From Bacilli bacterium (GTDB taxonomy: Bacteria; Bacillota_I; Bacilli_A; RFN20; CAG-826), in assembly GCA_024413875.1 (NCBI GenBank), contig JAKSVY010000050.1, positions 1-10,575 of the forward strand: a stretch of DNA of 10,575 bases. Reading direction: 5' to 3'. Below are positions 1 to 10,575 of the stretch, piece by piece (within the stretch, counting starts at the first letter, position 1; every line of letters begins with the position of its first letter). The notes beneath the pieces are model-generated. The model was not told the origin of the DNA. It saw only the letters and a program-made list of their open reading frames with translations, and searched no databases. The position numbers and the translations under genes were made by a program.

Positions 1-646
1 GATAGTAGTTCATCATTGAGAACATACCCTTCTTCATTTCACCACCATACCAAGTATTGATAATGATTTGTTCGTGTGAAGTAATGTTGAACATAACTGC
101 TGTTTCTGAATTTAATCCGAGTTCAGCGTAGTTTTCAACTTTAGCCTTTGAAGCATTGTAAACAACAAAGTCTGGTTCAAAGTTTTCAAGTTCTTCTGCT
201 GTTGGCTTAATGAACATGTTGCGGATAAAGTGAGCTTGCCATGCAACTTCAACGATGAAACGGACAGCCATTCTTGTATCCTTGTTAGCACCACAATATG
301 CATCAACAACAAATAACTTCTTGTTAGATAATTCTTTACGAGCAATTTCCATACAAGCATTCCATGCTTCTTTTGTTGCACGGTGGTTATCGTTCTTGTA
401 ACCTTCGCTTGTCCACCAAACTGTGTCGTGTGAGTTTTCATCATCAACGATGAATTTGTCTTTTGGAGATCTACCTGTGTAGATACCTGTCATAACGTTA
501 ACAGCGCCGAGTTCAGTTTCTTGACCAACTTCGTAACCTGTTAAGTCTTTCTTTGTTTCTTCTTCGAATAATACTTCGTAAGATGGGTTGTAGACAATTT
601 CAGTTGTTCCTGTAATGCCATACTTTGTTAAATCGATAGTTTTCAT
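1..646 (-). CDS. pckA: Phosphoenolpyruvate carboxykinase (ATP), N-terminal 215 residues, cut by the window edge
   Basis: Cytosolic enzyme interconverting oxaloacetate plus ATP with phosphoenolpyruvate, CO2 and ADP. In anaerobes it often runs toward oxaloacetate, but the direction cannot be read here. The frame is open from the ATG at 646 to base 1. Residues 58-64 read GRSPKDK, where R59 matches the substrate-binding Arg65 of the E. coli enzyme. Residues 199-209 read [11 protein letters not shown], where Y200 and K206 match Tyr207 and the metal-binding Lys213. The P-loop kinase motif lies past the window edge; the family is about 530-540 aa, so roughly 60% is missing. The start has a good ribosome site, AGAGGT at 652-657. 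The gene has its own promoter and sits behind the terminator of the ABC operon, so it is a separate unit. Family assignment is very secure. Confidence 0.96.
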
Positions 647-708
647 TTTTTACCTCTATATGAATTATGATTTTTAGTGTTTTGAGCATAAATCCCAAAA
701 TCACGGAC

Positions 709-737
709 ATAATAGCACAGTTAATATATTAAAATAA
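709..737 (-). promoter_or_regulatory. Probable extended -10 promoter of pckA
   Basis: On the minus strand TGCTATTAT (709-717) is an extended -10 element (TGn plus TATTAT, 5 of 6 matches). Seventeen bases upstream is only a weak -35, TTATTT (732-737), which is tolerable with an extended -10. It would give a leader of about 55-60 nt before the ATG at 646. It lies between the ABC-operon terminator and pckA, the only place a promoter could be. The rest of 647-777 shows nothing else recognisable. Confidence 0.5.
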
Positions 738-771
738 ATAATTTTTTGTTTGAAAGTTACAAAAATTACAA

Positions 772-796
772 AATAAAAACACCTGAGTGAGGTGTT
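772..796 (-). terminator. Rho-independent terminator of the ABC exporter operon
   Basis: Read on the minus strand, AACACCT and AGGTGTT form a perfect 7-bp stem (778-796) around a 5-nt loop, followed by TTTTTATT. It begins one base after the TAA stop of the ABC gene at 798-800, so it ends that operon. Confidence 0.85.
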
Positions 797-797
797 C

Positions 798-2549
798 TTA
801 CTTTTGGAATTGTGATTCATATAAGTTTTTATAGAAACCACCTTTGGCTAATAACTCATTATGATTACCTTGTTCAATGATGTGTCTATCTTTTAAAACA
901 AGAATGGTTGTAGCCTTTTGAATTGTTGATAATCGGTGAGCAACAATAAATGTTGTTCTACCCTTCATTAATTCATTAAAGGCTTCTTGAACTTTAACTT
1001 CTGTACGGGTATCAATTGACGATGTAGCTTCATCAAGAATTAATACTGGTGGTTTAACAAGCATTACTCTAGCGATACATAGCAATTGTTTTTGACCTTG
1101 AGATAACGCTCCTCCATCTTCACCAATATAAGTATCATATCCGTTCTCTAATTGTTTAATAAATGAATGACAATGTGAGGCTTTACATGCTTCGATGATT
1201 TCTTCATCAGTTGCATCTTCTTTACCATACTTTAAGTTTTCTTTAATAGTGCCACTAAATAACCAAGTATCTTGCAAGACCATCCCAAATTCATGTCTAA
1301 GATCAAATCTTGTTATATCTCTGATATTTACCCCATTAATTGAGATTGATCCTTTATCAACATCATAGAATCTCATTAAAAGGTTTATAAATGTGGTTTT
1401 ACCACATCCTGTAGGTCCAACAATCGCGATTGTATCTCCACTATTAACATTAAGATTAAATCCTTCAATTAAGTGTTGCTCTGGAACATAAGAGAAATAA
1501 ACATCATCAATCTTTAACTCGCCTGAATTAGATGCAATTGTTTTTGGATTTTCACATTCAACTTCAAGAGGTGATTCAAGAAGTTCAAATACACGTTCTG
1601 CACATGCGTTAGCGTTTTCAAGTTCTGTAATTGTTGATGAAATGTCATTAAATGGTTTTGCGTAGCTTGATGCATATGAAAGGAAGGCACTTACAAGACC
1701 AATATCCATAACACCGACACCACTCCATTTAGTTGCAAGTAATCCACATAAAACACCTACTGAAGCATAAATAACATTGTTAATGAATCTTGTTGATGGG
1801 TTAACTAAGGTTGAGAAGAAGATAGCGTTTAATGATGTTTTACGTAATTCTTCATTCTTTTCTCTAAATGCTTCAATACATCTAGATTCATATCCATATG
1901 CTTGAATAACCTTTTGGTTAACAATAGCCTCTTCAATTAAAGATGTTTGTTCACCTTTAATTTTTGCTTGAGCCTTAAATAATTTATAAGTTGATTTAGA
2001 GATAAATCTTGCAATGAATAAACTCATTGGAGTTAAGACCACGACTAATGCTGCAACAATTGCATTAAGAGAGAACATAAATCAAATCGTACCGGCAATT
2101 GTTAATACACCAGTAAATAATTGTGATAGGCCAAGGAGAAGTCCATCTGAAATGGTTTCAACATCTTGAATTAATCTAGAAAGAATATCACCAGTGCTAT
2201 GAGTATCTAAGTAAGATAAAGGCATATGTTGAATATGCTTAAAGGCTACTTTACGTAAATCTCTTGTAACTAAGAATGAGATCTTATTGTTAATAATACC
2301 CATTAACCAAGATGAAAGCGCAATAACGACGTTAAGAGCGACAATTACAATAAGTAATGGATAAATGCTTTCCCAGTTAACTAAAGACGCTCCAACAGCG
2401 AGATTTATAACGTTTTTAATAACAATTGGAAGATAAATTGTTCCTCCAACTGATAAAAGCGCGAACATTAATGAAAGCACTACCAATCCAGTATATGGTT
2501 TTACAAACTTAAGGAGTTTAACAAATGATGACTTATTTTTCTTTTTCAT
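798..2549 (-). CDS. Heterodimeric ABC exporter, catalytically competent half (TM288/LmrD-like), interrupted by one in-frame TGA
   Basis: A membrane ABC exporter half-transporter, TMD followed by NBD, 583 codons, the normal length for the family. The NBD has Walker A GPTGCGKT (378-385), Q-loop Q426, signature LSQGQ (482-486), Walker B LILDE with catalytic Glu507 and switch His538. All residues needed for hydrolysis are present. The variant LSQGQ signature is what TM288-type halves contribute to the non-hydrolysing site. The ATG at 2549 overlaps the upstream stop by one base (TAATG), with AAGGAG at 2559-2564, so translation is probably coupled. Codon 156 (2082-2084) is TGA. It splits the reading into 155 codons (2082-2549) and 426 codons (798-2078) in the same frame, with alignment continuing across the stop inside the third membrane helix. 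Either the gene is a fresh pseudogene, the base is an assembly error, or the stop is read through. Exported substrate unknown. Confidence 0.85.
2082..2084 (-). other. In-frame TGA codon inside the ABC exporter gene
   Basis: Residues before it (TIAGTI) and after it (FMFSLN) match the family continuously, so exactly one codon is affected and there is no frameshift. Recalled homologues carry Gly, Ile or Leu at this point; a single G-to-T change of GGA, or TGG to TGA, would produce it. A restart at the ATG of 2076-2078 is unlikely: no ribosome site precedes it, and the product would lack the first helices. Confidence 0.8.
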
Positions 2550-4267
2550 TAGTCTTCGCTCCTTTCTTGTGATTTAACAATTTCCACATAGACTGGAGAT
2601 GTCTTAATTAAGTTATCGTGAGAATCAAAACCAACAACATTTCCGTGATCTAAAACAATAATCTTATCTGCGTTTCTAACAGTTGATGAACGTTGTGAAA
2701 CAAGGAAGATTGTTTTATCTTTCATATTAAAGATTTCTTTTCTAAGTTTTGCTTCAGTCGCGTAGTCTAACGCACTTGAAGAATCATCTAAAACAAGGAT
2801 ATCTCCACCAGCGAGAACACCACGAGCAATACCAAGTCTTTGCTTTTGACCACCAGAAAGATTTCTAGCACCTTGTTCAAGTTCAAAGTCTAATCCGTTT
2901 TTAGATTCCACAAATTCTTTTGATTGAGATATTTCAAGCGCTCTCCAGATTTCTTCATCAGTTGCGTCTTCTTTAGCAACTTTCATATTATCTCTAATAG
3001 AGCCTTTAAATAATTGAGCCTTTTGTAAAACAACGTTAGTTTTGTTTCTAATTTCTTTACGTGAGTAGTTTTCAATGTGTTTTCCATCAATGATAAGTTC
3101 ACCATTATCAGGGAGATAAAAACCCGCTAATAAAGATACAAGTGTTGATTTACCTGAACCAGTTCCTCCGATAACGCCAATAACTTCACCTTTATTAATT
3201 TCAAGATTGATATTGTTTAAAGCGTTATCACCATTTTTGGTATAACCAAAGTTAACATCTTTGAATGTAATAAATGATGAATCAATATGTTCATCAACAG
3301 TTTTGTTTAAAGATGGGTCTTCAAGTGTATCAAGCATTGCTTGGACACGGTCACCACTCGCAATTGCTCTTGTGACTTGGATAGTTAAATCAGCAAACTT
3401 AATGAGTTCTACAACAACTTGAGACATATAGTTAACAATAGCGATAACAGCGCCTTGAAGAAGGATGCCTTTATCAATAAAGTTAGCTCCAACATATAAA
3501 AGTCCCGCGATTGAGATATTAACAATGCCATAAGCAATTGGATTTAATAACTTTGATATTCTTGCTACCTTAATTTGGACTTTAGTGAGTTTATCATTTT
3601 TATCGTTATAGTTTTCAATTGATGAATCTTCTTTTGAGAATGCTCTTACAACACGAACACCTGTTAAGTTTTCTCTTGTAAGTTTAACTACTTCGTCAAC
3701 ATTACCTTGCACTACTTTATATTTTGGGATTGTCCAAAGCATAATAGCGAACACTAAGATAAAGGCAACAATGATGACTCCCGCAAAGATAACACCAATA
3801 ATCCAACTCTTAGATACAACAGTTGCCATAATAGCGGCACCTAAGATAATGAAAGGTGATCTAAGGAATAATCTTAAAGCAAGGTTAACACCATTTTGTA
3901 ATGCTTGAATGTCATTAGTGAGTCTAGTCATTAATGTTGATTGACCAAGTTCATCTAGAGATGAGAAAGATAGTTTTTCCATCTTTTCATATAATTCTTG
4001 TCTTACTGATGCAGAAAATCCTGTTGCGGCTTTCGCACAGAAGTACTGAGCGGTAATACAAGATATATATCCCACCACCGCTAAAGCTAATAAAACACCA
4101 CCCATCTTTAAAATGAATGGAACATTGTTTTTGTTAATACCTTCATCAATAAGATAAGTCATGATGACAGGAACAAGTAAATCAAAACAAGCTTCAAGAA
4201 GCTTAAAGAGAGGTCCTAAGACACATTCAAGTTTATATTTACCTAGATGCTTAAATAACTTTTTCAT
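2549..4267 (-). CDS. Heterodimeric ABC exporter, degenerate-site half (TM287/LmrC-like)
   Basis: Inner-membrane ABC half-transporter of 572 aa, about six helices in residues 14-295 and an NBD from about 330. The NBD has Walker A GGTGSGKS (367-374), Q-loop Q415 and a canonical signature LSGGQ (470-474). Its Walker B is LVLDD, with Asp495 replacing the catalytic Glu, and its switch residue is Gln525 instead of His. This Asp/Gln pair is the hallmark of TM287-type subunits. The hydrolysing site is therefore built from the Walker motifs of the downstream partner plus this LSGGQ. It is the first gene of a two-gene operon and its stop overlaps the partner's start. The ATG at 4267 has no good ribosome site (only AAAG nearby) and a leader of about 10 nt. 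Such pairs export drugs, lipids or peptides; nothing here indicates which. Confidence 0.93.
   Translation of the reverse strand: MKKLFKHLGKYKLECVLGPLFKLLEACFDLLVPVIMTYLIDEGINKNNVPFILKMGGVLLALAVVGYISCITAQYFCAKAATGFSASVRQELYEKMEKLSFSSLDELGQSTLMTRLTNDIQALQNGVNLALRLFLRSPFIILGAAIMATVVSKSWIIGVIFAGVIIVAFILVFAIMLWTIPKYKVVQGNVDEVVKLTRENLTGVRVVRAFSKEDSSIENYNDKNDKLTKVQIKVARISKLLNPIAYGIVNISIAGLLYVGANFIDKGILLQGAVIAIVNYMSQVVVELIKFADLTIQVTRAIASGDRVQAMLDTLEDPSLNKTVDEHIDSSFITFKDVNFGYTKNGDNALNNINLEINKGEVIGVIGGTGSGKSTLVSLLAGFYLPDNGELIIDGKHIENYSRKEIRNKTNVVLQKAQLFKGSIRDNMKVAKEDATDEEIWRALEISQSKEFVESKNGLDFELEQGARNLSGGQKQRLGIARGVLAGGDILVLDDSSSALDYATEAKLRKEIFNMKDKTIFLVSQRSSTVRNADKIIVLDHGNVVGFDSHDNLIKTSPVYVEIVKSQERSED
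2559..2564 (-). promoter_or_regulatory. Ribosome binding site AAGGAG for the second ABC gene
   Basis: AAGGAG lies inside the 3' end of the upstream gene, 9 nt before the ATG at 2549. It fixes that start and supports translation coupled to the first subunit, as expected for a 1:1 heterodimer. Confidence 0.8.
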
Positions 4268-4284
4268 AACTTTGAAACGACTTT

Positions 4285-4290
4285 ATTATA
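4285..4290 (-). promoter_or_regulatory. Putative -10 (TATAAT) of the ABC exporter operon
   Basis: A perfect TATAAT on the minus strand ends 17 nt before the ATG at 4267. No convincing -35 is seen: the hexamer at a 17-bp spacing is CTTTTA and lies within the upstream terminator. Transcripts would begin about 10 nt before the start codon, giving a nearly leaderless message. An upstream promoter with readthrough is an alternative. Confidence 0.45.
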
Positions 4291-4301
4291 TAAGATTGTC
4301 T

Positions 4302-4334
4302 AAAAAATAAAAGCATATAGCGTTAACTATATGC
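4302..4334 (-). terminator. Terminator hairpin after the 1033-aa surface protein gene
   Basis: On the minus strand GCATATAG and CTATATGC form a perfect 8-bp stem (4313-4334) with a 6-nt loop, followed by TTTTATTTTTT (4302-4312). It lies about 30 nt past the TAA stop of the surface gene. Because that gene may be a DGR target, the same hairpin could also serve as a retrohoming cruciform (speculative). Confidence 0.8.
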
Positions 4335-4363
4335 AATTACTGAGTATTATCTTGCCTTAATTG

Positions 4364-7300
4364 TTAATCAAGCGTTAGTTTTAAAGCTGGTCGGACCCCT
4401 ATGCAGGAGCGGTCGACGAAGTACCAATCGTAGTGGGTGGGGTAGCCGCCATCGCTGACAAAGCACGCGTACCTAGCATCGTCGGAGTAGGAATAGTAGT
4501 CATCAGGAGAACGTGTCCAGTAATCCCCAACATCATAACTTAAGTTGCATTGTACTCCTCTAGCTAAAGCAAAGTCAGTTGGTTTGCATTTTCTAGAATC
4601 ATTGCTATCGAATCCATAAGATGAATTGTATAAGTCTTTAGTGCTTAATAAGAAAACTTTATCGTTAGTGTTTTCACAAGCATATTTATTTGCATCAGAA
4701 AACGTTGTAGATGCCGAATTATCCACTTCAGTTGTTTTAATTAAAGTGTCATCACTTGAGAACGCCGCATTATAGAAATCAGTGTTTAACCATGAACGAA
4801 CTTCGCTATATTTATAGTTATTAGCGTAAGCTTCACCAGTATTACCTTGATAATCTGTTCTTAATTTTGTGCCGTCATAGGATTCGTTATGTCTATGAGC
4901 ATCAAGAATTTTTGCTGATGAAATAAAGTATTCATTATTATCATCAAGAACTTTCCATTCAATTGGTTCAACTTTAAACCAATATTTGTTGCCACGCGAA
5001 ATTAATGTTCCATCCTCAAATTTACATGAATAATATGGATGTTCAGTTGGGTTCGCAACATATGGATAATAAAGATTTTCATTGTAAGAATAATATCCAT
5101 TTTCATTAATTGAAGATGCTGTTAATGAATTAAGAGCTGATACTAATGATTCATCTGATACATGTGTTTGAGGGTAAAAGCCATAAACGACTGTGTCTAA
5201 TTTAAATTTTGCTTCTAAAGAATAATCATTAGCAGGCATATTAAATGTATAAGAAACATCATCCGAAACTTTGTTTGATTCATTGTACCAACCCGTAAAT
5301 GCATAATGTTCTACTGGTGTTGCAGTAACTGTAACTGATGAATCGTATGCATATGTTCCACTGCCAGATACTGTGCCTTTTGAGGTATCTTCACTAGTGA
5401 CTGTTAATGAATAGTTATTTGTCGAGAACTTCGCTACTAAAGAATAGTCATAAGCCGGCATTTTAAATGTGCATGTTGTGTTTGATGATACTTTTATTGA
5501 GTCTTCATACCAACCTGTGAATGAGCAGCCTGTTTTAGGAGTCGCAGTAACTGTTACTGATGAGTTATATGCGTAAGATCCACTTCCTGACACTGTACCT
5601 TTTGATGTGTCTCCACTTGTGACTGTTAATGAATATTTATTTGTCGAGAACTTCGCTACTAAAGAATAGTCATTAGCCGGCATATAAAATGTGTATGCTC
5701 CGTTTGATGATACTTTTGTTGAGCCTTCATACCAACCTGTGAATGAATATCCATCATAAGCCTGAGCATAGACTTCAACCCAAGAACCTTTTTTATAATA
5801 ACCACTATTATCTGTTACAATACCCATTGATGAATTATCAGAACTAATAGATAAATAATATTCTTTAGATGAAGTACTACCGCCTTGAGTTGAAGTGCTA
5901 CCGCTTTGATGGCTTCCACCACCAAAGTTAATTCTTCCATATGGAATAGCAGTTAATACCAATGAAAGAACGGACACTCCTAATAATGATGAAGCTACTA
6001 TAATGTTGACTTTATCTTTGATCACTTTCTTATTCATTGAAGAAGCATCAATAGATGATTTTTCTTCATCTGTTAATGGTGCGAGTTGATTTTCTTCTAA
6101 ACACTTAACACACGCTTCAGCTTTTTCGTTTTTAAACGCTAATGTTTGGTTATTAAGGATTTTCTTAGTAATTACTGATCTTATGACCACCATCGAAATT
6201 CCTGTACCTAATCCAATTGGTGATGCAATTAGAATTAAGAAATTTCCTAATGCAGATGATAGAACAATTGATACTCCAGTAACCACAAAACCAATAATTA
6301 ACGCTACAAGAGTTAATGCAAACATTGTTTTATGTTGTTTAAATTCTGCCTTAGCAGTTTTCTTTGTAGGTTGAGTTCTTCCACCCTCATTAACAACAGT
6401 GTCACCTTCAGGGAAATATGTAAAGATATGCCCGTGTTCAATAGCAGGCATAGCAAAAATTACTGAATGACCATTTGATGTTCCTTCTAGGTTAAAAGAT
6501 GGAACATAATAGAATGTATCAACTGGATCAAAGTTGCAACGTCCTGTATATCTCCATCCATCAACTTTGTGGCCTGGAAGTTCGCTTTTACATTTTCTAG
6601 CAAGTTCATCAATTTTTGATTTCTTTTCTGATTCTTGGACACTTCTATCAACACGTCTTTTTAATGGATATACTTGTTCCTCTTGGAAAGGTATATATTC
6701 ATCATTAGATGACTTATAGTAAATTGGTGTTACAAAATCAATCTTTGTTTCGGTACCATAAGTACACATAAAGGCGATACCACCATCAGAACCATTACCA
6801 GAGAACGATTCCCATTTGGTTTCAGTTTTTGTTTTTCCATCGCCATATGTAACTTTGTAATCTGTACCAATTTGACAAGAATATGAAACATCTACAGAAT
6901 ATGGAACTTCAGCAAATGTAATATAAGCTTTTTTAACTGCTTCACTAGAAGCGTGATATGACTCTAAGAAACGAGCAGAAACATTGCCTTTATTAGCAAG
7001 TTCAAGAACTGTTTTTCTAACAAATTCTTTTTCTGTCAAAGTTTGCTTAACTTGATAAACAGGAATATCATCAACACTTCCAACGAACGAGTTGATGTTT
7101 GTAATGTTTGTGTCAGGTCTAGGAAGAGATATGATTGTGCCACACATATTACATTTATATGTGTAGTCATCAATCTTTGTTGTATCTCCACTGCCGCATT
7201 GTTTACAAACAACTGAATTAACAGCCTTTTGAGTGTTAACAGGGTTTTGTTGTGTGTTGCTTTGTGCAACTGATGCTCCTACTGATGGATTAGCATTTTC

Positions 7301-7465
7301 AGTAAATTCATGTCCACATTCAGGGCACGTTGATGCATTCGCACCTACTTCAGCATCACATTCAGGACATTTTTTAGTATCTTTAAATTCGTGGCCACAG
7401 TGGATGCAAACATTTTTAGACATTGCAACCTTGCCACCACATTCAGGGCATATTTTAACTGCCAT
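4364..7465 (-). CDS. Zinc-ribbon, three-span membrane protein with InlB-type repeats and a C-terminal DUF6273/C-type-lectin-like domain (candidate DGR target)
   Basis: 1033 aa, probably anchored in the membrane with its C-terminus outside. Residues 6-50 hold two CxxC...CxxC zinc ribbons and 87-108 a third (CKQC, CNMC). Residues 135-350 are a soluble region I do not recognise. Membrane spans are at about 381-404, 408-430 and 485-507; the Lys-rich 431-484 loop is inside, which puts 510-1033 outside. A Gly/Ser/Thr linker (514-533) leads to three repeats of about 74 residues (536-755), each with FTGWY and a MPAxDYSLxAKF ending: divergent InlB B-repeats. From about 757 the sequence (YGFYPQT, KVEPIEWKVL, YWTRSP, GVRPAL) matches my memory of DUF6273, which resembles DGR-variable lectin folds. 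Start: AAGGAG at 7474-7479, 8 nt from the ATG. The last 120 bases are compositionally foreign. The gene stands alone between two terminators. Function unknown; ligand binding is inferred. Confidence 0.88.
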   Translation of the reverse strand: MAVKICPECGGKVAMSKNVCIHCGHEFKDTKKCPECDAEVGANASTCPECGHEFTENANPSVGASVAQSNTQQNPVNTQKAVNSVVCKQCGSGDTTKIDDYTYKCNMCGTIISLPRPDTNITNINSFVGSVDDIPVYQVKQTLTEKEFVRKTVLELANKGNVSARFLESYHASSEAVKKAYITFAEVPYSVDVSYSCQIGTDYKVTYGDGKTKTETKWESFSGNGSDGGIAFMCTYGTETKIDFVTPIYYKSSNDEYIPFQEEQVYPLKRRVDRSVQESEKKSKIDELARKCKSELPGHKVDGWRYTGRCNFDPVDTFYYVPSFNLEGTSNGHSVIFAMPAIEHGHIFTYFPEGDTVVNEGGRTQPTKKTAKAEFKQHKTMFALTLVALIIGFVVTGVSIVLSSALGNFLILIASPIGLGTGISMVVIRSVITKKILNNQTLAFKNEKAEACVKCLEENQLAPLTDEEKSSIDASSMNKKVIKDKVNIIVASSLLGVSVLSLVLTAIPYGRINFGGGSHQSGSTSTQGGSTSSKEYYLSISSDNSSMGIVTDNSGYYKKGSWVEVYAQAYDGYSFTGWYEGSTKVSSNGAYTFYMPANDYSLVAKFSTNKYSLTVTSGDTSKGTVSGSGSYAYNSSVTVTATPKTGCSFTGWYEDSIKVSSNTTCTFKMPAYDYSLVAKFSTNNYSLTVTSEDTSKGTVSGSGTYAYDSSVTVTATPVEHYAFTGWYNESNKVSDDVSYTFNMPANDYSLEAKFKLDTVVYGFYPQTHVSDESLVSALNSLTASSINENGYYSYNENLYYPYVANPTEHPYYSCKFEDGTLISRGNKYWFKVEPIEWKVLDDNNEYFISSAKILDAHRHNESYDGTKLRTDYQGNTGEAYANNYKYSEVRSWLNTDFYNAAFSSDDTLIKTTEVDNSASTTFSDANKYACENTNDKVFLLSTKDLYNSSYGFDSNDSRKCKPTDFALARGVQCNLSYDVGDYWTRSPDDYYSYSDDARYACFVSDGGYPTHYDWYFVDRSCIGVRPALKLTLD
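4385..4504 (-). other. Candidate DGR variable repeat at the 3' end of the surface protein gene
   Basis: GC counted by hand is 67 of 120 in 4381-4500, against 21 of 60 in 4561-4620. For codons 988-1021 (4403-4504), 24 of 34 end in C, none ends in A, and 12 different NNC codons occur, but not AAC. A DGR template uses AAC codons whose adenines are randomised, giving NNC without stop codons. The segment lies between the conserved WTRSP (983-987) and GVRPAL (1023-1028), at the very end of the gene, where known variable repeats lie. Codon use returns to AT-rich immediately after (TTA AAA CTA). The G-rich ATAGGGGTCCGACC at the downstream edge could act as the IMH-like priming end. No reverse transcriptase or template is in the window. 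Confidence 0.6.
5201..5860 (-). repeat. Three tandem InlB-type repeat units, about 222 bp each, within the surface gene
   Basis: Unit 1 covers codons 536-609, unit 2 codons 611-682 and unit 3 codons 684-755. Units 2 and 3 are closest: TSxDTSKGTVSGSG, YAYxSSVTVTATP and FTGWY recur in both. Similarity holds at the DNA level, for example between the blocks starting near 5420 and 5641. They probably form a rigid stalk raising the C-terminal domain from the cell, and could vary in number by recombination. Confidence 0.8.
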
Positions 7466-7494
7466 AAAAATTTCTCCTTATTATCAATAAACAA

Positions 7495-7522
7495 ATATTA
7501 AAATATATAACCCCCCCCGCAA
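7495..7522 (-). promoter_or_regulatory. Putative promoter of the surface gene with a poly-G spacer
   Basis: On the minus strand TTGCGG (7517-7522, 3 of 6 matches) is followed 16 bases later by TAATAT (7495-7500, 4 of 6). The spacer starts with GGGGGG, part of a run of eight G. Each G gained or lost would shift -35/-10 spacing by one base, the arrangement known from phase-variable promoters such as Neisseria porA and, with poly-A, Mycoplasma hyorhinis vlp. The hexamers are weak, so the promoter itself is uncertain. Confidence 0.4.
7511..7518. repeat. Homopolymer of eight C (eight G on the coding strand)
   Basis: An isolated run of eight C in surroundings that are otherwise almost all A/T, 46-53 bases upstream of the start of the surface gene. 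Mononucleotide G/C runs of this length are typical slippage sites. Confidence 0.9.
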
Positions 7523-7531
7523 GATTTTTAT

Positions 7532-7571
7532 TAAAAAAATAAAAAGCAAGCACCAATTACAATGCTTGCTT
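7532..7571 (-). terminator. Terminator after the lipoprotein gene
   Basis: On the minus strand AAGCAAGCA and TGCTTGCTT form a perfect 9-bp stem (7544-7571) with a 10-nt loop, followed by TTTATTTTTTTA. It lies 22 nt past the TAG stop of the lipoprotein gene and separates it from the surface gene's promoter. Confidence 0.88.
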
Positions 7572-7593
7572 GAGTAATATCATTGAGTTTTTA

Positions 7594-9027
7594 CTAAATC
7601 TCGTATGATTGCCCTGCTACCATTGTTTCACCATTAAGGGTGCATTCACTACCTTTTGAAACAATTCCATTAGAATTGAGACCAACATATGTATTGTTTG
7701 ACGCTGTTACATATGTTTTACCATTAATGTATGCAGCAGACTTAGATGTATCATTTTTGAATAAATTATTCTTCAATGTTAGGTTGATTGTTGAACCATT
7801 TTCACCAGCGGTTTTAAAGTCTCCATACGCTGTATTTTCAGCAAGGAAATTACAACCAGTAGCTTCTACAGTAGTTGTTGTAGCCTCACCTTTTTCGTGA
7901 TCAACGAATACGTTATACATATTTGTTTTATCAACTGTGAATGTACAATTAGTAAACTTAACGTTTCCGAACACTACAACACCATTATCAAATGTGCAGT
8001 TTTCAAAAGTGGTATTTTCTGCAAAGAAATACATATATGACACTACTCTTTCAGGATATTGAATAGCAGAATATTCTTTTTCATTATAAAAATGAACATT
8101 CTTAATAGTCATTTTCTTTCCTGGAGCCATTCTAGATGAGCCAGAAAGATTTGAGTATGTAAATCCAGCTGGAGAGCCATTGCCAGAATTTGGATTTATA
8201 TTAGCGGAATAAGTTCCACCGAATCTAATTGAGTTTCCATTACCTTCAATTGTTAATTCTGATGCAGTACTTGGGAATGTTACTGAATATCCTCTTGTCG
8301 CAAAATCAGTAAGAATATTTACATTTTCATTTAATGTAAGAGTGCTTCCGTTAGTGACAGATTGAACTGCGCTATCAAAGCTAGTAAATGTATCTTGATT
8401 TACTGAGTATTTTGAATATTCAGTTCCTGAAGATAATGTTTCATATGAGATTTCAATTTTACATGATCTATTTTTTACAGAATCTTCAAGTCCCTTAGGA
8501 AGAGTGATTGTTAAATCATAGTTTTCACCACTCCAAGATGCTGTTTTTCTAGCGTATGCAGTGTGTCCAAGAATTAACTTCTCATTATTTAATTCAAATT
8601 GAAGTAAATTAAATAAACCATTATCTTCGATAACCTTGATAGAACGTCTATAAAGGAATGATGTTGTAGAATCATTTGAAATATCGACTAAGAATGAGAT
8701 TGAATCTCCACCTGTTAAGTTTGATAAAGACAAAACATTGTTTTCAAATGTTCCTAGTCCACCACTAGGGAATGACTCAGAACCTGTAGTTGTGTTTGAT
8801 TTATACACTACATCATCAATAACTTCAGTAAGTTCAATGTTTTCATCTACTATATCAGTGTTAGTTGAGGATGTGTCTGTTCCTGGAGTAATATCAGTTC
8901 CAGTTGTTTGAGTGTTTGTTGAAGGTTGTTCTTTGTTTTCACTACTAGAACCAGTTTTACCACCACAAGCAGTTAAAAAGAGAGTTGTTAATAATAATGT
9001 TGTTAATAATTTTGTATATGTTTTCAT
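7594..9027 (-). CDS. Secreted lipoprotein with a beta-sandwich and a parallel beta-helix-like region
   Basis: 477 aa. A short lipoprotein signal peptide ends in the lipobox LTAC, with Cys21 to be lipidated, so the protein should be attached to the outer face of the membrane. Residues 22-66 are a Ser/Thr/Asn-rich linker. Residues 73-198 form a beta-rich domain that loosely recalls TasA/camelysin-type sandwiches (GGDSISFLVDISN, YDLTITLP); this is a weak match. Residues 213-445 show ladder-like repeats (IEGNGNSIRF, MTIKNVHFYN, TTFENCTFDN, VKFTNCTFTV, VEATGCNFLA), the pattern of pectin-lyase-like right-handed beta-helices. No catalytic motif is recognisable, so adhesion or glycan binding is as likely as an enzyme. 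Start: AAGGA at 9040-9044, 12 nt from the ATG. No promoter is visible in the 45 nt after the ATPase gene, so co-transcription is likely. Confidence 0.85.
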   Translation of the reverse strand: MKTYTKLLTTLLLTTLFLTACGGKTGSSSENKEQPSTNTQTTGTDITPGTDTSSTNTDIVDENIELTEVIDDVVYKSNTTTGSESFPSGGLGTFENNVLSLSNLTGGDSISFLVDISNDSTTSFLYRRSIKVIEDNGLFNLLQFELNNEKLILGHTAYARKTASWSGENYDLTITLPKGLEDSVKNRSCKIEISYETLSSGTEYSKYSVNQDTFTSFDSAVQSVTNGSTLTLNENVNILTDFATRGYSVTFPSTASELTIEGNGNSIRFGGTYSANINPNSGNGSPAGFTYSNLSGSSRMAPGKKMTIKNVHFYNEKEYSAIQYPERVVSYMYFFAENTTFENCTFDNGVVVFGNVKFTNCTFTVDKTNMYNVFVDHEKGEATTTTVEATGCNFLAENTAYGDFKTAGENGSTINLTLKNNLFKNDTSKSAAYINGKTYVTASNNTYVGLNSNGIVSKGSECTLNGETMVAGQSYEI

Positions 9028-9072
9028 ATTTTTATTGATTCCTTTCTTTAAATAATTGGTAGTTCTATCTCA

Positions 9073-10353
9073 TTAATCTTTTAGGCATCCGATTGGGATG
9101 ACAAATACCCCATCATCTCTTTTATATCCATATTGACCACCAGTGATAATGATTTTTAAGTCCGGGAGTCTTAAAGGGCATTGAGTTTCTTTTTTGTTGA
9201 ATTCAGCAATTAGTCTTTCTATCTCGCACAAATGTTTTGCACCTTCTTCGATTTCTTTTGTTCCTAATTTGAATTCCAATAAAGCGTATCTTCCATCCTT
9301 TAAATGGAGGACACCATCAGCTTCCAGTCCATATCTATCATGATAGTAGGAAATTTGCCCATTCATCTTCGATGAATATATTTTCAAATCCCTGATACAT
9401 AATGATTCAAATAGGAATCCTAATGTTTTAAAATCAGTATTAAAGTATTCAGGTGTAATGCCTAATGCCGCAACAGCAATAGATGGATCAACTAGGTTCC
9501 TTTTATTGCTTGCTCTAATCGATTCTTTAGATCTTATAGAGGGACACCAAGCAGGTATATCATCAATAATATATAATTTTTCTAAGGCTTGAATGTAGTC
9601 ATAGTATGTTTGCTTTGCAAGATCCATAGTAGCATTAACATCGCTAAAGATTGTTTTTGTTTCAGCTAATGTACATATGTTTCTCGCGTAAGACATTAAA
9701 ATCTTTTCTGCTAATTTTGGATTTCTTTTTACTCCATCAATTCTTGAAATATCTCTATTACACGTTTGATAGAATAAGTCATTTGCGATTTCTAATTGTG
9801 ATTGAACGGTTTTATTATATAAAGATCTAGGCCATCCACCACGGCATACAGCATAAATTAATGCGTCCATAGTTAATTTGGATTCTACAAATTCCAAGTT
9901 TTTAGTTTTGAACAATTCAAGCAAAGAAACGGTACCTGAAGATTCGCCACTCTCATATAAACTCATAGGATACATTTTTAATGTCGATATTCTGGTTGTC
10001 CCTGTATGAGGAGTTTCAACATTCGCTGTCGAAGAGCCTGTTAAAATATATAACCCAGACTCATTTCTATCATCAATTGATTTACGAACTGCACCCCAAA
10101 TTTTTGGAGCATCTTGCCATTCATCAAATAATCTTGGATTTTCACCAATTAACAATTTTGATGGTGCTGTTTCAGCCACACTTAATAATCCTTCGCGAAA
10201 ATCTTCATCTTGGAATTCAATGATACTTTTCGATTTTTGCTTAGCTGATGTTGTTTTGCCACAACCTTTAGGTCCAACAATTAAAACACCACCAAAGGCT
10301 TCCAATTTTAAATCTAAGATGTCATCAATAATTCTTTTTTTATATTCTTTCAT
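9073..10353 (-). CDS. AAA-type ATPase with C-terminal DUF4143 domain
   Basis: 426 aa. Numbering here runs from a TTG ten codons upstream; subtract 10 for the chosen start. P-loop GPKGCGKT (37-44), Walker B LFDEWQD (85-91), sensor TGSS (115-118): the AAA_14 pattern. The DUF4143 part (about 200-415) ends in a PD-(D/E)xK-like core, with EAD (Asp356) and then EFK (Glu370, Lys372). These proteins are common in bacteria and archaea and of unsettled function; DNA binding or cleavage is only inferred. I chose the ATG at 10353 because AAGGTG (10360-10365) lies 6 nt upstream and because the promoter's predicted start of transcription falls near 10365. The TTG at 10381-10383 has no ribosome site and would lie upstream of the transcript. 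Probably co-transcribed with the lipoprotein. Confidence 0.9.
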   Translation of the reverse strand: MKEYKKRIIDDILDLKLEAFGGVLIVGPKGCGKTTSAKQKSKSIIEFQDEDFREGLLSVAETAPSKLLIGENPRLFDEWQDAPKIWGAVRKSIDDRNESGLYILTGSSTANVETPHTGTTRISTLKMYPMSLYESGESSGTVSLLELFKTKNLEFVESKLTMDALIYAVCRGGWPRSLYNKTVQSQLEIANDLFYQTCNRDISRIDGVKRNPKLAEKILMSYARNICTLAETKTIFSDVNATMDLAKQTYYDYIQALEKLYIIDDIPAWCPSIRSKESIRASNKRNLVDPSIAVAALGITPEYFNTDFKTLGFLFESLCIRDLKIYSSKMNGQISYYHDRYGLEADGVLHLKDGRYALLEFKLGTKEIEEGAKHLCEIERLIAEFNKKETQCPLRLPDLKIIITGGQYGYKRDDGVFVIPIGCLKD

Positions 10354-10371
10354 CACAATCACCTTGTTTAA

Positions 10372-10399
10372 ATTGTATTCCAAATTTTTAATTTGTCAA
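10372..10399 (-). promoter_or_regulatory. Strong sigma-70/SigA-type promoter of the ATPase-lipoprotein unit
   Basis: A perfect -35 TTGACA (10394-10399), a 16-bp spacer and -10 TACAAT (10372-10377, 5 of 6). Transcription would begin near 10365, just before the ribosome site of the ATG at 10353, so the leader is only about 12 nt. Confidence 0.75.
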
Positions 10400-10402
10400 C
10401 AC

Positions 10403-10464
10403 TTACTAGACACATTTGTGGTATTTTACTAGACACATTTGTGGTATTTTACTAGACACATTTG
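10403..10464 (-). repeat. Three direct repeats, 23-bp period, next to the ATPase promoter
   Basis: The 16-mer CAAATGTGTCTAGTAA (minus strand) occurs at 10403-10418, 10426-10441 and 10449-10464, separated by identical 7-nt linkers. The first copy ends 4 bp from the -35. A spacing of about two helical turns puts the copies on the same DNA face, as for repeated binding sites of a regulator. The regulator is unknown. Confidence 0.85.
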
Positions 10465-10494
10465 AGATAAATAGCGGCATAAGTTGCAGGTTGT

Positions 10495-10524
10495 CAAAAA
10501 GAAAAGAACACAAATGTGCTCTTT
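10495..10524 (-). terminator. Terminator of the gene entering from the right edge
   Basis: On the minus strand AAGAGCAC and GTGTTCTT pair (one G-U) around an ATTT loop (10504-10523), extendable by one A-T pair, followed by TTCTTTTT. The stem overlaps the TAA stop of the partial gene at 10523-10525. The remaining stretch, 10465-10494, shows nothing recognisable. Confidence 0.72.
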
Positions 10525-10575
10525 ATCTTCTTGTTTTGACATCATTAACAATGTTGGTGATCTTTGTTAAATAGT
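10523..10575 (-). CDS. C-terminal end of an unidentified protein
   Basis: One minus-strand frame is open from the window edge to a TAA at 10523-10525 and would encode a C-terminus ending ITNIVNDVKTRR. The other two frames hit stops sooner. A terminator begins at once, which supports a real gene end. Too short to identify. Confidence 0.5.
   Translation of the reverse strand, partial: YLTKITNIVNDVKTRR

Follow-up and report, generated by a model that had tools for sequence, protein, structure and literature searches.

A probable diversity-generating retroelement variable region at the end of a membrane-anchored DUF6273 protein from a Bacilli bacterium

How did a short run of codons ending mostly in C come to lie at the 3' end of a bacterial gene, and what could have written it there? 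The question is raised by a 10,575-nucleotide stretch of Bacilli bacterium DNA (assembly GCA_024413875.1, contig JAKSVY010000050.1, positions 1 to 10,575; hereafter the window), in which a gene for a membrane-anchored protein with a DUF6273 domain ends in such a tail. We consider that the tail was very probably written by a diversity-generating retroelement (DGR), the segment being the variable region of a DGR target. In DGRs, the adenines of a template rich in AAC are replaced by random bases, which gives NNC codons between A-free constant codons. The DUF6273 profile (PF19789) matches the window protein with 68.4 bits against a family cut-off of 23.5, and the variable region makes up the C-terminal part of the domain, at the 3' end of the gene. 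This assignment agrees with the lectin-like fold proposed in the original prediction, a reading of this stretch from its letters alone, in that DUF6273 is a published DGR target with a lectin-like model.

Codon signature of the tail

Third-position C occurs in 24 of the 34 codons of the window tail (71%), where its amino acid composition would predict 5.6 (P = 1.5e-13, a shift of 8.8 standard deviations). No codon ends in A, against 6.5 expected (P = 8e-5). Both the excess of C-ending codons and the lack of A-ending ones had been pointed out in the original prediction, and the counts uphold them. The segment had further been placed between WTRSP and GVRPAL at the 3' end of the gene, and the C-rich run indeed begins and ends within the coding frame, halting at these constant borders. 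A plain insertion of GC-rich DNA, already disfavoured at that stage, is ruled out by the third-position pattern, in which C is raised and G is not.

Similar tails were found in many relatives. Of 1156 candidates in a protein search with the DUF6273 domain, 646 matched at E up to 0.001, and the best 120 were considered; apart from the window protein itself, no member of these 120 of 646 matches is more than 55% identical to it, and the best match in the genomes is 62% identical. A WTRSP...VRP-like frame with variable columns could be parsed in 100 of the 120 homologues. At the DNA level, 80 loci were retained from 420 relatives in a scan of genome contigs; of these 80, 49 bear the titles Bacilli, Bacillales, Erysipelotrichaceae or -ales, or Mollicutes. 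According to the share of C at third positions, 57 distinct WTRSP tails, loci added later included, were divided into a C-rich class (≥50%, n = 28, including the window), an ordinary class (<35%, n = 24) and a class in between (n = 5). Third positions of the 28 C-rich tails, which include five from genome G005 (in four of them C is common upstream too), are C in 68% and A in 3.1% of cases, compared with 30 and 23%, respectively, in the 120 codons upstream. Furthermore, the amino acids that NNC cannot encode (M, Q, K and E) account for 2.8% of residues in these tails and for 8.7% upstream.

The columns of the 14 standard-length C-rich tails fall into the same two kinds. Constant columns mostly have A-free codons, while variable columns show three to four bases at positions 1 and 2 and mainly C at position 3 (T in column 10); in GAY and ACG columns, the variation lies mostly at the would-be A. 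A-free constant codons together with NNC variable columns are the pattern expected when the adenines of a template rich in AAC are exchanged at random. Changes at template-adenine positions, by which a DGR target is tested, are thus seen through the signature and the relatives rather than by comparison with a template of the window tail itself.

Related templates and complete retroelements

A complete DGR is present in a related genome of the same family, at locus L143 (genome G129, contig C30; family of G003), where a DUF6273 target with InlB-type repeats is accompanied by bAvd, a template and a reverse transcriptase (RT) of 339 amino acids. Twenty of the 22 differences between its 130-bp template and the variable region are at adenines. 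DUF6273 targets with templates also occur at L286 and L361, and the targets at L283 and L285 match the DUF6273 profile below the cut-off. Template and target pairs of similar skeleton are carried by four IMG/VR contigs (L283, L285, L286 and L366); the template of L366, of the same type, has all 17 of its mismatches at A. Another IMG/VR contig, L284, has a template-like stretch alone. Across 43 tails, the mean entropy is 3.20 in the columns of the 16 asparagines of the L283 phage template and 1.57 in the other 12 columns (p = 2e-5); that is, the variable columns of the tail coincide with the asparagines of a real phage template.

Seven short metagenomic open reading frames (ORFs) look like templates of the WTRSP skeleton, nearly full in P0121-P0124 and partial in P0125-P0127; the contig that encodes P0124 measures 42.8 kb. 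Given that they were searched for with a typed template-like peptide that was Asn-rich by design, their Asn content is not independent evidence. The Asp that follows the (V/I)R(P/S) motif in P0121-P0124 is independent, since it was absent from the query; an Asp likewise follows Pro in the templates of L143, L283, L285 and L286, and L366 is without it. DUF6273 has a precomputed match in three of the seven ORFs, and two of the seven exceeded the cut-off in our own profile scan.

Other retroelements and tails were encountered as well. The DGR at locus L365 (6078-7256; genome G175, contig C14) has a template of 206 bp, with 24 of the 27 differences falling at A; its target matches Lcl_C below the threshold. 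Locus L147 (9487-9781; genome G017, contig C6), from the genus of G134 (see below), is a DGR with its own template and RT and a lectin-type target (tail GAFYLHL...CGFRL). Five IMG/VR phage contigs (L254, L268, L273, L274 and L280) encode proteins ending in another form of YWTRSP tail, GVACGF-like in four of the five.

The missing cassette and the origin of the tails

Several results weigh against a DGR origin. A scan of 13 window ORFs gave no match to the RT family or to bAvd, and within the 10.6-kb window the segment has no near copy that could be its template. A WTRSP-skeleton template was not found in the 220 to 279 related genomes searched. A DGR-type RT is present in 1 of the 18 related genomes with C-rich WTRSP tails, namely G017, whose template (at L147) serves another protein and does not fit the DUF6273 tail of G017. 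In G134, the nearest relative, the DUF6273 protein (L298, 362-2797, contig C143) has ordinary T-ending codons in its tail and adjoins the end of an ATPase gene similar to the window DUF4143 gene. Finally, flank and tail identities in the five closest DNA pairs are 99.6/96.4, 98.9/99.0, 91/85, 86/81 (a pair of the ordinary class) and 83/93%; between L232 and L190 the tail is 93% identical despite an upstream flank of 83%, i.e., it changes more slowly than the flank. The DGR variable repeat of the original prediction is therefore sustained in part, by the codon signature, the template-matching columns and the metagenomic template-like ORFs, but not by a cognate RT or template in the window or a WTRSP-skeleton template in the 279 genomes.

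Template DNA patterns were run on 23, 224 and 220 related genomes. Eight of the 224 genomes matched: G129 through its own cassette, six others by chance when read, and G219, which was left unread. The YWTRSP pattern hit 60 sites in 38 of 220 genomes, and the 59 distinct stretches read included no AAC-rich template, the maximum being 5 AAC codons. A template peptide matched 26 of the 279 genomes of the order, and these matches were judged by the length of their open frame. Those in G129 and G142 (61 and 64 amino acids, in their own cassettes) are templates; the other matches listed were rejected, lying inside frames of at least 320 amino acids. Viral contigs gave nothing with the first template pattern, and the WTRSP pattern hit 32 viral contigs with no template among them; several (such as L254, L268, L273, L276, L280 and L281) have WTRSP tails of other phage proteins. 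DUF6273 itself had one weak match each in viral contigs, phages and plasmids.

Among the 279 genomes, G134 is nearest to the window by an ABC protein 75% identical and by synteny of the phosphoenolpyruvate (PEP) carboxykinase and both ABC genes. It has no match to the RT profile PF00078, which matches 6 of the 24 genomes of its genus; RTs with the DGR motif occur there in G017 and G175, and their templates serve other targets. At the family level, PF00078 matched 23 of 146 genomes and the L143 RT as query 26 of 220. With the GxxxSQ motif, which we take as the mark of a DGR-type RT, at least 10 genomes have such an enzyme (G129, G208, G142, G144, G124, G137, G017, G160, G175 and G148), while the RT matches in G004, G005 and G200 are without the motif. 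A template and variable region pair was found in 9 of these 10 (the exception being G144), and the method therefore finds cassettes where they are present. Absence of the cassette from a single bin is weak evidence because bin completeness is not stated; absence from 17 of 18 genomes is less so. It is not peculiar to Bacilli either, because nine genomes taken as a control for cassette recovery, from Clostridia and other groups (one is a Treponema) and with tails that are C-rich or nearly so, include two with an RT and none with the DGR motif.

Rates of change gave a divided picture. In thirteen protein pairs, flank identity reaches 90% or more over approximately 200 amino acids and tail identity is 24-64% (mean 0.48), although the ten closest pairs draw on five proteins (P0072, P0086, P0094, P0100 and P0109) and are not independent. 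Even where flanks are 96-98.5% identical, tails are 24-64% identical and some differ in length, so that rewriting must have been recent in at least one protein group. Some protein pairs with flanks below 80% have tails up to 100% identical over the aligned columns. The DNA comparison covered 14 pairs whose flank identity is 75% or more; in the nine beyond the five closest, flank identity is 75-76% and tail identity 43-63%. Among the five closest, the tail is not clearly faster-changing, and rewriting is not seen there.

A DGR origin may take one of two forms. In the first, a DGR would have written the tail in an ancestor or donor and its cassette would have been lost, the tail since drifting or being kept by selection; we find this quite plausible, if somewhat short of probable. 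It accords with the lack of a cognate cassette in the relatives searched, with the near-identical tails of the closest DNA pairs and with the 24 same-frame tails with ordinary codons, as expected from decay to host codon usage. Treponema denticola isolates with target genes but without RT or template are also on record, as far as the available text of PMC4891356 goes. The protein pairs with nearly identical flanks and divergent tails, pointing to recent rewriting, fit it poorly, as do the third positions of the window tail, still 71% C.

In the second form, the DGR would sit on a mobile element, such as a phage or plasmid, that is missing from the bins, and would still rewrite chromosomal tails, which is possible but rather doubtful. 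The template-like ORFs of the WTRSP skeleton in metagenomic contigs, the related templates in IMG/VR contigs, the failure to find a template in 18 genomes with C-rich tails and the recent divergence in one protein group are all in its favour; on the other hand, no element with a WTRSP template plus RT was found, and tails hardly differ between the closest DNA pairs. It also draws on a short inverted repeat across the stop codon, fixed in place among the C-rich relatives (stem 5 bp, loop 11-13). Counted on 24 of the 28 C-rich rows (the window, L229, L208 and L194 were left out as unalignable, and two rows were shifted by 6 bases), this stem has 88% of cells paired and 10 cells changed on both sides, compared with 2.2 in shuffles (0 of 500 reach this); slid controls gave at most 69% paired and 3 double changes. 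However, two of the five covariation measures, those least affected by relatedness, are within the shuffles (pairs with a double change, 39/500; pair types, 162/500), and the stem departs from the published rule of 7-10 bp with a loop of 4 (PMC3240598, in its available part). Perfect stems of at least 5 bp anywhere across the stop are not commoner in C-rich (16/28) than in ordinary tails (14/24). The fixed-place stem was looked for in the window and not found; the only hairpin there is terminator-like (Table 1), most simply read as an ordinary terminator, although it may be a DGR target hairpin. L285 and L286 have a hairpin with a longer stem and a 4-nt loop, as in the phage BPP-1. We regard the fixed-place hairpin of the C-rich relatives as a lead. 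A mobile DGR, missing from assembled chromosomes, that recognises the stop-codon hairpin and acts in trans on chromosomal surface-protein tails throughout this family of gut Bacilli seems unlikely to us; if true, host surface proteins would be a shared, externally served repertoire.

Without any DGR, C-rich tails might have been swapped among DUF6273 genes by recombination or horizontal transfer. Noncoding sequence past the stop is alike in several C-rich genomes, and one tail has changed less than its flank, but such exchange explains neither the C-not-G third positions and missing A nor the rarity of the excluded amino acids and the template-matching columns, and the C-rich run of the window begins and ends inside the coding frame; we hold it to be improbable. 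The similar DNA past the stop (for example at L242, L243, L231 and L234) comprises an inverted repeat, a AATAATCAAAA-like stretch and a terminator-like repeat, and could be a target site or reflect tails moving with their 3' ends. Local codon choice, or selection on the mRNA or protein with no special mechanism, can be set aside as highly improbable: no supporting point was found, the 8.8 standard deviation shift halts at constant borders and is found again, at the same columns, in many genomes, and the protein frame needs no C-ending codons because same-frame tails with ordinary codons exist.

Gene context, proposed mechanism and known systems

The features of the DUF6273 gene are collected in Table 1. 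Transmembrane-like stretches are placed between the zinc ribbons and the InlB repeats; because they separate the two, the repeats and the DUF6273 domain are probably outside the cell membrane. On one flank and the same strand lie a DUF4143/AAA_14 ATPase gene and a lipoprotein-like gene, and on the other, also on the same strand, an ABC transporter gene, a second ABC gene in two pieces and PEP carboxykinase. The second ABC transporter gene is split into 798-2078 and 2082-2549 in the window and forms a single 584-codon frame in G134 (L297). The gene at 7594-9027, adjoining the DUF6273 gene, encodes a lipoprotein-like protein of 477 amino acids that matches a pectate-lyase-like adhesive domain below the threshold.

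Table 1. Positions of the DUF6273 gene and associated features in the window
Feature	Position	Strand	Basis
DUF6273 gene, 1033-amino-acid membrane-anchored protein (zinc ribbons, transmembrane-like segments, InlB B-type repeats, variable tail)	4364..7465	-	ORF list and Pfam
Variable region proper, 34 codons (988-1021), 24 NNC, none A-ending	4403..4504	-	codon count
5' constant border YWTRSP	4505..4522	-	reading frame and homologous tails
3' constant border GVRPAL	4382..4399	-	reading frame and homologous tails
DUF6273 domain, amino acids 872-1031, lectin-like fold (predicted)	4373..4852	-	Pfam E 9.3e-19
Three InlB B-type repeats, limits approximate	5200..5860	-	Pfam
Stretch with transmembrane-like segments, amino acids 384-506	5948..6316	-	sequence scan
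N-terminal zinc ribbons, inferred cytoplasmic	7301..7453	-	Pfam
Hairpin 3' of the stop codon, 8-9 bp stem, then T-rich sequence	4313..4334	-	sequence reading

Under the DGR origin that we prefer, an RT would have copied an AAC-rich template with random bases inserted at adenines, and the mutagenized copy would have replaced the 3' end of the DUF6273 gene. The result would be NNC codons at exposed positions of the lectin-like domain, with mostly A-free constant codons between them. The writing cassette (template and enzyme) does not lie beside the gene and would be either elsewhere (remote or on a mobile element) or lost. The repeats would present the domain, and its likely use would be to vary what the cell surface binds, because it is displayed on repeats probably outside the membrane. 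The writing event in the window gene, the exposure, the topology and the binding role are what we infer from the sequence.

Comparison with known systems places the tail in a familiar kind. DUF6273 is a published DGR target in phage tentaclins and their second targets (PMC10743442) and in Faecalibacterium prophages (PMC11792537), according to the accessible portions of both papers. As in the window, the variable region lies within DUF6273, lectin-like by model comparison; in the Faecalibacterium phages it is at the C-terminus of the domain, and in tentaclins the variation is adenine-directed. Those are targets of phage or prophage cassettes, whereas the window protein is membrane-anchored and its gene has bacterial neighbours, with neither RT nor template anywhere in the 10.6 kb. 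The DGR of G129 shares with the window a DUF6273 target (41% identical to the window domain), InlB-type repeats and an NNC-rich C-terminal variable region, and differs in its adjacent bAvd, template and RT, its WLRSP frame and 54% GC over 17 kb.

Two further systems resemble it in part. T. denticola isolates likewise have variable tails without a resident cassette; to judge from the excerpted text (PMC4891356), that study compared isolates of one species with and without it, whereas here many genomes are involved and no donor cassette is seen. BPP-1 requires a hairpin past its variable region and, as in our C-rich relatives, the inverted repeat lies just past this region, near the stop; the part of PMC3240598 concerned gives stems of 7-10 bp and 4-nt loops, compared with 5 bp and loops of 11-13 in the C-rich relatives and the terminator-like hairpin alone in the window. 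A large metagenome survey sought targets next to RTs and, in the section available, states that remote ones would be missed (PMC8144416); because it looked beside the RT, cassette-less targets may be undercounted. Among the papers listed by our literature searches, none dealt with cassette-less DUF6273 tails in gut Bacilli. With a DGR-type enzyme lacking in 17 of the 18 relatives that have C-rich tails, the question arises whether such tails are relics or served in trans. The kind is thus known, DUF6273 being a published DGR target; what is new is a membrane-anchored bacterial member without an adjacent cassette, which places DGR-type variation in DUF6273 proteins that belong to bacteria rather than phages, in gut Bacilli about which little is known.
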